Part shown: positions 1-6,404 of the stretch, in pieces
Layout of the letters: each line of letters begins with the position of its first letter
Numbering within the stretch: position 1 is the first letter of the stretch
DNA from: Thermoplasmatales archaeon
GTDB taxonomy: Archaea; Thermoplasmatota; Thermoplasmata; Thermoplasmatales; Thermoplasmataceae
DNA length: 64,000 nucleotides
Assembly: GCA_016806715.1 (NCBI GenBank)
Contig: CP060531.1
Coordinates: 1-64,000 of the forward strand
Direction of reading: 5' to 3'
Notes under the pieces: model-generated
Database searches by the model: none
What the model saw: the letters and a program-made list of their open reading frames with translations, nothing else
What the model was told of the DNA's origin: nothing
Program-made: the position numbers and the translations under genes

Positions 1-3000
1 ATGTTAATTGAATCGATTGAAATGGACAACTTCAAGTCCTTCGGACGCAAGAAGAAAATTGAGTTCAGGAAGGGACTCACTGTTATAAGTGGGCCTAACG
101 GGAGCGGAAAGAGCAATATCGGTGATGCTCTCCTCTTTGTTCTTGGGGTCCGATCTGCAAAGTCGGTTCGCGCTGACAGGCTCTCCGACCTTATTCACCG
201 TTCATCTGAAGATAAGACAGGAAGAAAGTATTGCAGGGTACAGATAAACTTCATATCTGGAGAGCAAGGGGCTGACGCGTCAGACCGCAGGATCAGCGTG
301 ATGAGGGAACTGACTGCGGATGGAGACGATTACAAGAGCAACTATTACATCAATGGATCAAGAGTCAAGCATTCAGATGTGGAACAGCTTCTAGATTCCC
401 TAAAGATATACCTGGATGGATACAGCTTTGTCCTGCAGGGAGACATCAACAACCTGGTCAAGATGACGGGTTTCGAGAGGAGGAAGCTTATAGAAGCAAT
501 TTCGGGGGTGGAGAGCTATGACAATCAGATTGAGAAAGCCGGCACAGACATACTTGGAATTAACGAACACGTTGTAAAACTGGAAGTCAGGACTCAGGAC
601 GAGGGAAGGCACGTGGAAGAACTCCGCCACGATAAGGATATAGCAGAAAGGTACAGGGAAATTTCCGGGAGGATACTGAACCTGAGATCAACCCTCATGG
701 AACGGGAAATTGCACGCAACAACCTCGAGATCGCGTCAATGAATACGCAGGTGAATGAACTTAATGGCCAGGTTTCTGAACTTGAGGCTGAAAACAAAAG
801 GTTAGCGGGGAAAATTGCAGAATTACTCGAGCACAAACATAAAGTTGAGGTGCAGAGGGAGTCCGTAAGCGGTTCAGAACTTAATGAAATAAGGAAGACC
901 ATTGAGAGGTACCGGCTCGACATAGCGGGAAATAAGATGCGAATACAGAATATAGGCGTCAAGATCGAGGAAAAAAAATCAAGAAGCGAGGCTGCGGCAT
1001 CTGAAATAGCTGCTCTATCAGACCAGAAGAAGAATTTTGAGGTAAAACTGAAGACGAATTCTGATGACATGGAACAGATCACTGCCGAGATCAGGGATTC
1101 TGAAAAATCTCTTTCTGCTATGAAAAGCCGTAACAATGCCACCAACGGCAAGCTGAATGAACTGAAGAAAAAATATTCAGACCTTGATGCTGAAGTTGAA
1201 AGACTTAGTATTGAAGTGGGAGATCTGGAGGTCGATTTCACCGAGATCAACAACAGGAAGATCAGGAAGACAATTGAGCTTTCCGCACTGGAGGAGAAAA
1301 AAGGCAGTCTGGAATTCCAGATCAAGGACTCCCTCTGGCGAAGCAAGGATTCCGAATCTGTCGCCGCAGAGGAGAGACGCAAGCTGAAGGAGTTGACAGA
1401 CCGGTATTACTCCCTAAGGAACAGCACCCAGGACATGATTGATGAAAAGGAAGGGCTATTGAAGAAGTTGGTGGAACTTAACAAGGAGTATACTAAATTA
1501 CAGGCCCTGACACAGAACCAGAAATTTAGCCAGAGCAAGGGATTAAGCCTGATCATTGGTGCCAGGAACCAGAATTACATTTCAGGGATTCATGGTCCCC
1601 TAAGGGACCTGATCAGTTTTGACGAGGAATTCCGTACCGCCCTGGAAGCAACAGCCGGAAATAGGCTTAACTCAGTAGTAGTTGAGGATGATGAAACTTC
1701 GCAGAAATGCATAGAACTCCTCAAACGCGAGAAAGCCGGGCGCATCACCTTTCTTCCGATCAACAAGATGACCATGGGCAGGCCAAGAGGAAAGGCCATC
1801 ATCGTACACAACTCACCCGACTCCCTTGGCTATGTCATGGAGAGAGTCAGCTACGACAAAAAATACGAGGGATGCATCTGGCACGCTTTCCAGGATACGG
1901 TCATAGTGGAAACAGTTGAGGTTGCCAGGAAATACATGGTTGGCGTGAAGCTCGTGACCATGGATGGGGACATATTTGATCCCAGTGGAGCTATTACCGG
2001 CGGATTCATGGAGAAAAAGCGCGAAAACGTTGTTTCGGAAAAGAGAGTGGCGGATCTGTCCGCAGATATACTTTCCACGAATTCGCAGATAGATGAACTT
2101 ACCTCAATCATAAAGACAAGGAACGCTGAACTTTCCAAACTTACTGAAGAACTCGGCGCAAAGTCAAGGGAAGAGGGTCAGAAGAAGGCAAATCTTGAGA
2201 GCATAGACGTGGATCTTGTAAAGACAAGAGAAGAATTGCAAAATATGCAGGGAAAAATCCTGCAGTGCACTGAGGAACTTCATTCAATCACTGATGAACA
2301 CGAGAAAAAAAGGTCAGGTATAGAAAAGATAAAAGCAGATATGCGCACAAAGCAGCGCGAAAAATCGACCATAATGGATGAGATGAAAACGCAGAACCCC
2401 GAGGAGGCAGAATTGCAGGAATCGATGGAAAAGAAACTGGCTCTCCTGCGCAATCAGCAGTCGCAAATAGCCGCGGAAATTTCTGCAATAACAGTTGAAG
2501 TAAGGCATAATGCGGAAAGAACAGGTGATCTGAGCAGCGAGATACGAGACATTGAAAAGGAATCAGGTGACCTGATGAAACAGGTCGATTCTCTTGAGTC
2601 AAAACAGAAGGTGCTTGATGCAGAACTTACCAAGTCACAGCTTATAGAAGCTGAGCTCGATAAAAACAGCAGGGAATTTACTGAGGCTATAGCAAAAATA
2701 GACCTGGAGATGCAGAAGATAAACCAGTTGATAGAGTCTAACAGGTCACTGTGCACAACAAAGCGGGATGTTACAATTTCTCTTAATGCAAAGATCGGGA
2801 GCATAAGGGATAAGGTAATGCAACTGTCAGAGGACATGAGAAATCTCGGTGGAAAACCCGTTGTTGAGGACATTTCAGACCAGGAGATCAGGAAAACCAT
2901 TCTGCAGCTACAGGGTGAGGGGGAGAACATGGGACCGATAAATTACAAGGCAATTGATGAGTTCTCTGTGGCCTCTTCAGTTCTGGAAGAACTTAAGACA

Positions 3001-3540
3001 GAGCTGGAAAGCCTTACCAGCGAAAGGAAAGAACTTGAGGATCTCATGGAAAGGCTCAACCGCCAAAAAGAGATTATTTTTGTCAAGACATTCAACAGCA
3101 TTAACGAGGGGATGAACGTAATTTATGGAAAACTGTCCGGCGGAGGAGAGTCGCAACTGATCCTGACAGACCCGGGAAACCCCCTGGATTCAGAGGTCCA
3201 TATAAAGGCACGACCCAAGGGGAAAACCTTTGCAAAACTGCAATCTCTCAGTGGTGGTGAGAAGAGCCTTACTGCCCTGGCTTTCATAATGTCGGTGCAG
3301 AGGATAACGCCTTCCCCGATCTACTATCTGGACGAGGTCGACATGTTTCTTGATGGCTCCAACGTTGAGAGGATGGGCCAGATGTTCAGGGCAAACTCTG
3401 AAACCTCCCAGATACTTATGGTGTCGCTCAAGAAAGCAATGCTGAAGTATGCTAACAACATAATTGGAGTAACCAGTTTTGACCAGGAGAATACGGAAGT
3501 GTATGGAAAGAGCCTGGCGTCCGATCTGGAGGAATACTGA
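1..3540 (+). CDS. smc: Chromosome segregation SMC ATPase
   Basis: SMC subunit of archaeal condensin; it dimerises, entraps DNA and drives chromosome organisation with ScpA. The 1179-residue length is typical. The N-terminal head has the Walker A motif GPNGSGKSN (about residues 31-39). Two long charged coiled-coil arms flank a hinge near residues 525-690 (rich in Gly, with GIHGPLRDLI). The C-terminal head has the ABC signature LSGGEKS near residue 1083 and the Walker B segment YYLDEVD near 1110. The first base of the window is the start codon. The stop codon overlaps the start of scpA, so the two are translationally coupled. Family assignment is secure. Confidence 0.97.
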   Translation: MLIESIEMDNFKSFGRKKKIEFRKGLTVISGPNGSGKSNIGDALLFVLGVRSAKSVRADRLSDLIHRSSEDKTGRKYCRVQINFISGEQGADASDRRISVMRELTADGDDYKSNYYINGSRVKHSDVEQLLDSLKIYLDGYSFVLQGDINNLVKMTGFERRKLIEAISGVESYDNQIEKAGTDILGINEHVVKLEVRTQDEGRHVEELRHDKDIAERYREISGRILNLRSTLMEREIARNNLEIASMNTQVNELNGQVSELEAENKRLAGKIAELLEHKHKVEVQRESVSGSELNEIRKTIERYRLDIAGNKMRIQNIGVKIEEKKSRSEAAASEIAALSDQKKNFEVKLKTNSDDMEQITAEIRDSEKSLSAMKSRNNATNGKLNELKKKYSDLDAEVERLSIEVGDLEVDFTEINNRKIRKTIELSALEEKKGSLEFQIKDSLWRSKDSESVAAEERRKLKELTDRYYSLRNSTQDMIDEKEGLLKKLVELNKEYTKLQALTQNQKFSQSKGLSLIIGARNQNYISGIHGPLRDLISFDEEFRTALEATAGNRLNSVVVEDDETSQKCIELLKREKAGRITFLPINKMTMGRPRGKAIIVHNSPDSLGYVMERVSYDKKYEGCIWHAFQDTVIVETVEVARKYMVGVKLVTMDGDIFDPSGAITGGFMEKKRENVVSEKRVADLSADILSTNSQIDELTSIIKTRNAELSKLTEELGAKSREEGQKKANLESIDVDLVKTREELQNMQGKILQCTEELHSITDEHEKKRSGIEKIKADMRTKQREKSTIMDEMKTQNPEEAELQESMEKKLALLRNQQSQIAAEISAITVEVRHNAERTGDLSSEIRDIEKESGDLMKQVDSLESKQKVLDAELTKSQLIEAELDKNSREFTEAIAKIDLEMQKINQLIESNRSLCTTKRDVTISLNAKIGSIRDKVMQLSEDMRNLGGKPVVEDISDQEIRKTILQLQGEGENMGPINYKAIDEFSVASSVLEELKTELESLTSERKELEDLMERLNRQKEIIFVKTFNSINEGMNVIYGKLSGGGESQLILTDPGNPLDSEVHIKARPKGKTFAKLQSLSGGEKSLTALAFIMSVQRITPSPIYYLDEVDMFLDGSNVERMGQMFRANSETSQILMVSLKKAMLKYANNIIGVTSFDQENTEVYGKSLASDLEEY

Positions 3541-4319
3541 TGGAATTTCAGGAGATAATGAACAGCCTTATTGTGCAGGGAGAGCTGCTGGAGGTCAACA
3601 CCGCAGAATACGAAAAGGTACTGCAGAATTTCGAGAACACCAATGCAATAACCGACCCGGTATCGAAGGCAAGTTCACTGGTTTTCCGCATGTGCCAGGA
3701 TGGTACCCTCGACCCTTGGAATGTCGACCTGGTTGCCTTTGCAAGATTCTTCAAGGAAATAATAACCGAGGATTTCAGCAATCTTGGCTTCGCTGGATAT
3801 ATAGTGGGTGAAGCATGGAGGATTCTCTACATGAAAACACTCTCCACCGTCGATTCCGAGGAAGCCGAGGAAGTAGAGATTGCTGATACAGATATAACAG
3901 AATATTCCGTACCCCAGATGGTACCGGATGACCTGGACCTCAAGATTCCAGTGTCAGGCCATATCCAACGGCCAATACGGATGATAGAGCTGCTGGACGC
4001 AATGCGGACAGCTTATATAAAAGATCAAAGAGCCGGTTCCAGGCGTAGGGCTGAATCGAATGAAATCACGTCACTGGAGGCTATAGTAAGCAACCTCAAC
4101 CTGGACGAACCTGAAAGGGAAATTGCAAGAGTATTCCAGTTGATCTCCGGCGCCTATAAGGACACCTTTTACATGGAGGATTACTGGGGAAAAACACCCG
4201 AAGAGCAGGCTTCCTTTTTTGTGTATTCACTTTTCCTTATGAGGGAGCGCAGGATCCAGCTTCACCAGGAGAAACCATATGCTGAGATTATTATTAACAG
4301 GATAGATATGGGATTATGA
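3540..4319 (+). CDS. scpA: Segregation and condensation protein A (kleisin)
   Basis: Kleisin subunit that bridges the SMC heads. The 259-residue acidic protein has the usual ScpA pattern: an N-terminal segment with DPWNVDLVAFARFF (roughly residues 58-71), a variable acidic middle, and a C-terminal winged-helix-like segment. Its start overlaps the smc stop by one base and its stop overlaps the start of the next small gene by four bases, so smc, scpA and the split nuclease genes form one tight operon. No scpB is seen in the window. Assignment rests on sequence pattern plus adjacency to smc. Confidence 0.9.
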   Translation: MEFQEIMNSLIVQGELLEVNTAEYEKVLQNFENTNAITDPVSKASSLVFRMCQDGTLDPWNVDLVAFARFFKEIITEDFSNLGFAGYIVGEAWRILYMKTLSTVDSEEAEEVEIADTDITEYSVPQMVPDDLDLKIPVSGHIQRPIRMIELLDAMRTAYIKDQRAGSRRRAESNEITSLEAIVSNLNLDEPEREIARVFQLISGAYKDTFYMEDYWGKTPEEQASFFVYSLFLMRERRIQLHQEKPYAEIIINRIDMGL

Positions 4320-4582
4320 GTCAACTCCTACAGGGCAGCGGGTCTGCAAAATCGAAATATGTAAGTGCCTCAGAAATTTCCCAGTACGAATTCTGCAATG
4401 TAGCATGGTACTACCAGAAAGAGGGGTATCCAAGAAGCAAGATATCATCAAGGCGTATGGCCAGTGGAAGGGAAAGCCACAAAAAAGTGGAGAAGTCTTA
4501 TGTTTCCCTCACCCTGATAGTCAGGATTCTGGTAATCGCGCTTGTCCTGGTCATCGCAGCTCTCGCACTGTTGTCGTTCTGA
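4316..4582 (+). CDS. Cas4-like nuclease, N-terminal half with C-terminal membrane anchor
   Basis: An 88-residue protein that matches only the beginning of the Cas4/RecB-like PD-(D/E)XK nuclease family. SASEISQYEFC supplies the first iron-sulphur cysteine (C27), and GRESH (about residues 51-55) is the family GrelH motif with the catalytic-region histidine. The protein then ends in one hydrophobic helix (about residues 63-88). The rest of the nuclease is encoded by the next ORF, which starts one base after this stop codon in another frame. It overlaps scpA by four bases. Seen: split motifs and membrane helix. Inferred: the two halves assemble. A frameshift artefact or programmed frameshift is the alternative. 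Confidence 0.7.
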   Translation: MSQLLQGSGSAKSKYVSASEISQYEFCNVAWYYQKEGYPRSKISSRRMASGRESHKKVEKSYVSLTLIVRILVIALVLVIAALALLSF

Positions 4583-4583
4583 T

Positions 4584-5111
4584 ATGCAATTTCTGCTTTT
4601 TCTTATACCACTGGCAATCCTCGTTATCCTGCTGGTTGCAAGCAGGAAGAGAAGATCATACAGAATCCCCCGTGGAAAGAAGATCTACGGGGATATGCTG
4701 ACAAAGGGAAAGGTACTGAAATCCGACAGATACATGTTATCAGGAAAACCAGACATGATAACCAGGAAAGGCCGGGCGATCATACCATACGAGTATAAAT
4801 CGGGACACGCAAACGAACCAAGAACAGGACATCTGCTGCAGATGGGGGCGTATTTCATAATTCTAGGCGATTTATATCCGAAGAGCGTGATAAGATACGG
4901 GATATTGAAATATGGTGATTCTGCATTCAGGATTGAGAACTCACAGGGACTCAGGAACAGGGTGCTCTCCATAGCGGATGAAATTCGAGGAAACCATGAG
5001 ATTCCCGTCAGGAACCATGACAGCAGGGTCAGGTGCTTCCGCTGCCCTTACAAGGAAGTGTGTTCGCAAAATCTGGCCTATGGCGGGCGGAATTCCTCAA
5101 TCAGCAAGTAA
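4584..5111 (+). CDS. Cas4-like nuclease, C-terminal catalytic half with N-terminal membrane anchor
   Basis: About 175 residues when started at the ATG one base after the preceding stop. It opens with a transmembrane helix (about residues 2-20) followed by a basic stop-transfer run RKRR. It then carries the catalytic part of a Cas4/RecB-like nuclease: KPD (metal-binding Asp), EYK (Glu and Lys), and QMGAY (QxxxY motif). It ends with CFRCPYKEVC, three cysteines that would complete a four-cysteine iron-sulphur site with C27 of the upstream half. Translation is probably coupled to the upstream gene, as no Shine-Dalgarno site is obvious. Position in the smc-scpA operon suggests a DNA-maintenance role; substrate unknown. 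Confidence 0.7.
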   Translation: MQFLLFLIPLAILVILLVASRKRRSYRIPRGKKIYGDMLTKGKVLKSDRYMLSGKPDMITRKGRAIIPYEYKSGHANEPRTGHLLQMGAYFIILGDLYPKSVIRYGILKYGDSAFRIENSQGLRNRVLSIADEIRGNHEIPVRNHDSRVRCFRCPYKEVCSQNLAYGGRNSSISK

Positions 5112-5372: not shown

Positions 5373-6404
5373 ATGGACAATATCGAAGCTATAACAGGGA
5401 ACATGGAAGAGGTTGTTACAATTGATGAACTCAGGGCACTGGATATCAGGGGTTCAAGATCATACATTGGATTCGAGCCATCAGGGATACCGCACATCGG
5501 GACAGCAGTTCTATGGCCCTTGAAACTGATGGAAGTTGCCGCAACGGGAATGCAGGTGACAGTACTGCTGGCTGACTGGCACGCGCTTATAAACGACAAA
5601 CTTGGTGGTGATATTGACATTATTCGGGAAAGCGGCAGGATGCTGGAGCAGAGCATGAAAGCGATGGGCCTGGTTGACAATGTAAAATTTGTTTGGGCGG
5701 CCGACATAGTCGATGATAGTGACTACTGGATGCAGTTCATTCACGTTGCAAAACACTCCAACCTTGCGAGGGTTACGCGTGCCCTCCCGATAATGGGACG
5801 CACTGAGGATGATGCAGAACAGGATTTCAGCAAATACCTCTACCCGCTCATGCAGGTCAATGATATTTTCTACAATGACTTTGATGTAGCCTTTGGCGGA
5901 ATGGATCAGCGCCATGCCCACATGCTGGCACGTGATATAGCTGAAAGAATGCACCGGAAGAAAGTCATATCGATCCATGGTCCGCTCCTTGGAAGCCTTG
6001 CCGGCAATGGCAGGATGGGTCCATTTGCCAAGATGTCGAAAAGCTCGCCGGATTCCGCAATATTTGTATCCGATAGTACGGATGAGATCAATTCCAAGCT
6101 GAAAAATGCCTACTGCCCTGCAGGTGAAATAGATGGAAACCCGGTATCAGACATATTACGCCACGTAATTTTTCCTTACTATAAAGGAGAGGTAGTTGTA
6201 GAGAGGCCCACAAAGTTTGGAGGTGACTTGCTGCTCAGGGACTTCGAGGATTTCAGGGCACAATATACACAGGGCAAGATACACCCCATGGATCTTAAAT
6301 CAACTGTTGGGCGTTATATAGACCGAATGATAAAACCGGTCAGGTCAATTTACAGTGAAAAGTCTGTGAAGGAAATGTTTGATGCAGTCAGGAAAAAAAC
6401 GTGA
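5373..6404 (+). CDS. tyrS: Tyrosyl-tRNA synthetase
   Basis: Class I aminoacyl-tRNA synthetase that charges tRNA-Tyr in the cytoplasm. At 343 residues it has the compact archaeal/eukaryotic form without the bacterial S4 tail. The nucleotide-binding HIGH motif is PHIGTA (about residues 40-45), followed by the tyrosine-pocket segment LLADWHALINDKL. The KMSKS loop is intact at residues 220-224. The ATG start is supported by an AGGAG sequence upstream. It is convergent with the small AbrB-like gene, with only two bases between the stop codons. Confidence 0.95.
   Translation: MDNIEAITGNMEEVVTIDELRALDIRGSRSYIGFEPSGIPHIGTAVLWPLKLMEVAATGMQVTVLLADWHALINDKLGGDIDIIRESGRMLEQSMKAMGLVDNVKFVWAADIVDDSDYWMQFIHVAKHSNLARVTRALPIMGRTEDDAEQDFSKYLYPLMQVNDIFYNDFDVAFGGMDQRHAHMLARDIAERMHRKKVISIHGPLLGSLAGNGRMGPFAKMSKSSPDSAIFVSDSTDEINSKLKNAYCPAGEIDGNPVSDILRHVIFPYYKGEVVVERPTKFGGDLLLRDFEDFRAQYTQGKIHPMDLKSTVGRYIDRMIKPVRSIYSEKSVKEMFDAVRKKT

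Follow-up and report, generated by a model that had tools for sequence, protein, structure and literature searches.

A predicted Cas4-like nuclease encoded in two open reading frames with putative membrane anchors, within the smc-scpA operon of a Thermoplasmatales archaeon

The locus and its genes

The window analysed here is a stretch of 64,000 nucleotides (positions 1 to 64,000 of contig CP060531.1, assembly GCA_016806715.1) from the genome of a Thermoplasmatales archaeon, which is a single 1.96-Mb contig; it starts exactly at the ATG of smc. Two short open reading frames, ORF1 and ORF2, lie between scpA and a gene for a tyrosyl-tRNA synthetase-like protein (Table 1), the second in a different frame from the first. 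An earlier sequence-only reading had assigned the pair to an smc-scpA operon, and the junctions bear this out, being tightly coupled throughout: TGATGG between smc and scpA, ATGA between scpA and ORF1, and TGATATG between ORF1 and ORF2.

Table 1. Features of the smc-scpA locus (window coordinates)
Feature	Coordinates	Strand	Evidence and remarks
smc, first operon gene	1..3540	+	SMC_N 2.2e-57, SMC_hinge 1.2e-29
scpA (ScpA/kleisin subunit of SMC)	3540..4319	+	Rad21_Rec8 E 0.0019, below cut-off; position after smc; overlaps ORF1 start by ATGA
ORF1, N-terminal half of Cas4-like nuclease, 88 aa	4316..4582	+	SASEIS, first Fe-S Cys C27, GRESH (H55), C-terminal membrane helix, predicted N-in
Junction TGA-T-ATG	4580..4586	+	ORF1 stop, one base, ORF2 start
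ORF2, C-terminal half, 175 aa	4584..5111	+	N-terminal membrane helix, GKPD, EYK, QMGAY, CFRCPYKEVC
TyrRS-like gene (class I W/Y synthetase)	5373..6404	+	PF00579 1.6e-41; downstream neighbour of the pair

The catalytic residues of the RecB type (H, D, ExK and Q..Y) are present only jointly. ORF1 contributes the histidine H55, within GRESH (G51-H55) and ahead of a C-terminal hydrophobic helix; ORF2 contributes D57 (GKPD), E70 and K72 (EYK), and Q86 and Y90 (QMGAY). The four cysteines of the Cas4 family are divided likewise, one N-terminal (C27 of ORF1) and three in a C-terminal CxxC-x5-C (C151, C154 and C160 of CFRCPYKEVC in ORF2). Combined, the residues of the two ORFs make up the known Cas4 pattern. 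In 18 of 18 aligned split pairs C27, W31, G51 and H55 of ORF1 and D57, E70, K72, Q86, Y90, C151, C154 and C160 of ORF2 are invariant. The coordinates, starts, stops and motifs first proposed for the pair were all recovered on re-reading the sequence, and so was the division itself, in which neither half is complete and both jointly carry every family residue.

ORF2 matches PF12705 (PDDEXK_1) [2.1e-8] and PF01930 (Cas_Cas4) [2.5e-7], both above the Pfam cut-offs, and scores 60.1 bits [2.4e-16] against TIGR00372, under the 65-bit cut-off of that model. ORF1 alone gives weak Pfam/NCBIfam matches to the Cas4 superfamily. One genome, G033, has a natural in-frame pair with TGA between the halves; when the TGA is read as Trp a contiguous chain (P0001) results, which scores 85.2 bits against TIGR00372, above the cut-off.

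Conservation of the split

A search for homologues in 77 genomes of the window's family gave matches in 51. Three weak matches in genus g4 and a second, likewise weak, in genome G051 (about 556-569 aa), which from their length, their neighbours and the literature look like Cas4-Cas1 fusions of type I-G loci, were set aside, leaving 48 genomes. Both halves were resolved in 56 pairs. The window's family supplied 37 genomes, two further MAGs and a single genome from a different family of the order added three more pairs, and the distant family f33 gave 16; all 56 consist of two ORFs, not the single polypeptide usual for Cas4. The arrangement of the window is repeated in three other genomes of its genus and in about ten other genera, closed genomes included. 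Where dS was unsaturated, dN/dS was 0-0.21 for ORF1 and 0.04-0.11 for ORF2, which indicates purifying selection on both. Because the split is kept in dozens of genomes, with dN/dS of about 0-0.21 in the unsaturated pairs, chance is excluded. We regard a genuine division of the nuclease into two ORFs as established, with hardly any room for doubt. The notion of a sequencing error or recent frameshift pseudogene in the window genome, to which the single base between stop and start gives some colour, has next to no probability against the recurrence of the arrangement in the genus and some ten others, closed genomes among them, and the low dN/dS of related pairs. The genome is likely to be that of Ca. 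Scheffleriplasma hospitalis, whose replicons were rotated to begin at smc, as the window does; if so, its sequence had also been corrected with Illumina reads (PMC8975820).

The offset in frame between the halves varies. In the window's family it is 2 in 20 pairs, 1 in 14 and 0 in three, and in f33 it is 2 in 15 and 1 in one; the ORF1 stop may be TGA, TAG or TAA. With offsets of 0, +1 and +2 and three stop codons, no single frameshift or read-through signal can serve all the pairs. The sequence-only reading had pointed to related genomes as the arbiter between a real split and a one-base indel or programmed frameshift; with separate halves in 37 genomes of the family, variable offsets, three stop codons and independent starts, the relatives refute the latter two.

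The same genome encodes a separate, intact Cas4 of 172 aa at 1.03 Mb (L149, G000:C1:1025500-1037500), beside Cas1, Csc2, a helicase and a long CRISPR array (about 59 repeats). That the pair is the Cas4 of CRISPR adaptation, moved and split, would agree with its Cas4-family residues and fold, but an intact Cas4 remains in the cas locus and the pair, which sits in smc-scpA-tyrS, has neither cas1, nor an array, nor other cas neighbours. This origin was rejected as highly improbable.

Translation start of ORF2

In most pairs the start of ORF2 abuts or overlaps the stop of ORF1 (TGANATG, ATGA, TGATG and TTGA, or a stop in frame with ATG or GTG immediately after it). The f33 pairs have ATA at this position in 12 of 16 cases, TTG in one and ATG in three; the ATA apparently overlaps the ORF1 stop in L055, L056, L059-L064, L066, L083, L127 and L128. 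A Shine-Dalgarno-like GRGGTG lies exactly 5 nt upstream, within the last codons of ORF1, in all 13 non-ATG pairs of f33 and is lacking in the three ATG-start pairs. A conserved AUA start codon for ORF2 in f33 is possible. ORF2 apparently starts with CTG in genus g5 (3/3: L011, L014, L019) and with ATC in L005. No ATG, GTG or TTG precedes the conserved part of ORF2 in L083, L019 and L005, and L014 has only a GTG inside the helix. Being related, the odd-start loci do not count as independent cases. These junctions would be explained most simply by coupled initiation from weak start codons.

A different reading is that the ORFs are separate in appearance only, and that programmed frameshifting or read-through of the stop yields a single continuous protein. 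It could draw on the three loci (L005, L019, L083) without a standard start for ORF2 and on the fused architecture known from other Thermoplasmatota loci, but the shift needed is 0, +1 or +2 according to genus and all three stop codons occur, so that no one mechanism fits; moreover, most pairs have ATG, GTG or TTG at the stop, and the GRGGTG 5 nt before every non-ATG start in f33 is what independent initiation would lead one to expect. We rejected a single chain as very improbable.

Membrane topology and predicted structure

The distribution of lysine and arginine beside the two helices is one-sided. Over the 16 pairs counted, there are 68 such residues within 15 positions before the ORF1 helix and one after it, and none before and 82 after the ORF2 helix. 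By the positive-inside rule the nuclease part of each half faces the cytoplasm, which agrees with the placement claimed at the outset.

For structure prediction the read-through chain P0001 stood in for the window pair, and the AlphaFold2 input comprised 38 relatives, mostly as separate halves. The model (pLDDT 89.7, pTM 0.85) folds as Cas4, with two long helices (34-81 and 87-115) forming a hairpin that interrupts the nuclease. Its best PDB matches with Foldseek are Cas4 structures (7mi4, 2.6e-7; 8d3l, 1.3e-6; then SSO0001; prob 1.00), the top ones being Cas4 in Cas4-Cas1-Cas2 complexes, and the alignment columns cover both halves. The TM-scores of 0.57-0.59 are moderate and the rmsd of 7-11 A is high because the helical insert differs. 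The model of a single chain with four helices (L089) shows this same nuclease carrying an insert of four helices; its confidence is lower (82.4).

Genomic context

The order smc-scpA-N-half-C-half-tyrS was found in 39 of the 39 window-family genomes in which scpA is visible, and tyrS lies downstream of the pair in 40 genomes. Most window-family loci have Fen1-like and RadB-like genes opposite. Outside this family none of the split pairs is beside smc-scpA, nor is any fused homologue inspected: the f33 pairs adjoin an ABCE1-like and/or eRF1-like (baeRF) gene in most loci examined (L080-L083, L086, L126-L127), and a TPD-family gene (PF14811, Pfam match in L096) is directly upstream of the fused form in several families of the class (L096-L102). 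A neighbour common to the whole phylum was not found in the loci examined. Since the pair is beside smc only in the window's family, the SMC link is a trait of that lineage. Four genera (g2, g4, g13 and g15) keep smc-scpA and have no pair, from which it follows that the gene is dispensable.

A role tied to SMC/ScpA, as put forward from the sequence, is thus upheld in part: the operon is universal among the members in the window's family, but f33 has the split form and other groups the fused form elsewhere, and whole genera are without the gene.

ScpB is encoded at 1.728 Mb, remote from smc-scpA; its presence led us to reject the pair as a replacement for ScpB.

Single-chain homologues

A search with the ORF2 profile (E <= 1e-8) over 390 Thermoplasmatota genomes gave matches in 247, some of which may be to ordinary Cas4 or to Cas4-Cas1 proteins. 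Of the loci inspected, 41 are single chains, and in all of them the hydrophobic helices come after the GxxxH motif and before the catalytic D. By a simple scan of hydropathy, eight of these have two helices, most have four and two have eight; four loci score three and two score five or seven, probably through threshold effects. Seven to eight helices are predicted between the two nuclease halves of the single chains L107, L135 and L139. The split pair has its direct counterparts in the two-helix chains, such as L145, and is apparently one version of a wider, seemingly undescribed family of Cas4-like nucleases with inserted membrane helices.

In a tree of the C-terminal domain a single branch (98/93) divides the split from the fused forms, so that one event is enough to explain them. 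The outgroup sits on a long branch and the AU test does not reject a split clade (p 0.39); the direction may therefore have been splitting or fusion. Genome G181 carries both forms. No viral relative was confirmed by pattern scan, and a structure search among viral proteins returned generic Cas4-like and RecB-like proteins only.

Proposed enzyme and function

From the conserved split, the residues, the topology signal, the predicted fold and the operon, all of them computational observations, the best reading is a trans-assembled, membrane-tethered [4Fe-4S] DNA nuclease, whose assembly in trans, Fe-S cluster, activity and substrate we infer. ORF1 and ORF2 would each cross the membrane once and keep the nuclease part in the cytoplasm. 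Pairing of the two helices as a hairpin, as in the single chain, would bring Cys27 and His55 of ORF1 together with the D-ExK-Q..Y residues and CxxC-x5-C of ORF2; the metal site and the [4Fe-4S] site would form only in the complex. Translation of ORF2 would be coupled to the ORF1 stop by termination-reinitiation, giving the halves in near equal amounts. The enzyme may cut or resect DNA near the membrane. Where it is expressed together with SMC-ScpA it may process ends or flaps of chromosomal DNA, and it may also, or instead, degrade foreign DNA that enters the cell. Assembly of the halves into one membrane-tethered nuclease is very likely, and we consider it likely that ORF1 and ORF2 are two subunits of a split, membrane-anchored Cas4-family nuclease with a function of this kind.

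Assembled halves might instead serve mainly to bar DNA that crosses the membrane, by uptake or from viruses, the smc-scpA operon being a convenient housekeeping promoter. The location of the gene away from smc outside the window's family and its dispensability in several genera are in keeping with this, as is the lowering of plasmid transfer or maintenance in Synechococcus by a soluble Cas4-like nuclease (PMC10653904). The tight and, in the window's family, universal operon suggests a chromosomal link, however, and no defence or uptake genes were seen beside the pair in the loci examined; we hold a barrier role to be a real possibility, somewhat short of an even chance. Because the neighbours differ outside the window's family and several genera are without the gene, context does not fix the role of the assembled nuclease, and SMC-linked, membrane-proximal chromosome processing and degradation of foreign DNA are about equally plausible.

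The most specific form of the proposal is speculative and, taken whole, rather unlikely: a two-subunit membrane nuclease, active only where its anchors meet and coupled to the SMC-ScpA condensin of archaea of the Thermoplasmataceae type, would process DNA ends or entangled DNA at the membrane during segregation and would represent a wider membrane-embedded Cas4 class across Thermoplasmatota.

It is unusual for the catalytic core of a Cas4-type enzyme to be divided naturally, and for the division to be conserved, with two membrane proteins presumably completing the site in trans. The pair offers a ready test of why an enzyme should be kept in pieces, for example for safety or to confine it to the membrane. 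With the single-chain relatives, membrane-inserted Cas4-like nucleases extend over an archaeal phylum; several membrane-inserted relatives would be called simply Cas4 by profile annotation. The linkage to smc-scpA makes it possible to test, in archaea that lack a wall, whether DNA processing is connected with the membrane and with the organisation of the chromosome.

Comparison with known systems

In the open-access full texts searched, no Cas4 that is split or has membrane helices inserted was found described, and we provisionally regard the arrangement as new. A survey of the Cas4 family, solo-Cas4 included (PMC5704561), has neither "transmembrane" nor "split" in its text. The pair shares with that family the catalytic H, D, ExK and Q..Y, the four-Cys pattern and the predicted fold, and differs from it in its two chains, in the membrane helices that separate the GxxxH motif from the catalytic D, and in its position outside a cas locus. 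The Thermoplasmatota single chains (L089/G110, L145/G089) have the same residues and the same insertion point for the helices, but consist of one ORF with two, four or about eight helices and lie away from smc-scpA in the loci examined.

In Thermoplasmatales smc and scpA are adjacent and scpB is remote (PMC7055376), and the window conforms to this description of archaeal Smc-ScpA complexes; the word nuclease is absent from the main text of that paper, whereas the operon of the window encodes a predicted one. The nuclease fold of AdnAB, Dna2, Exo5 and MGME1 was matched by Foldseek to the modelled homologues, but AddB/AdnAB, Dna2, Exo5 and MGME1 (Fe-S or RecB-like) are single-chain modules without inserted membrane helices, several of them fused to helicases.
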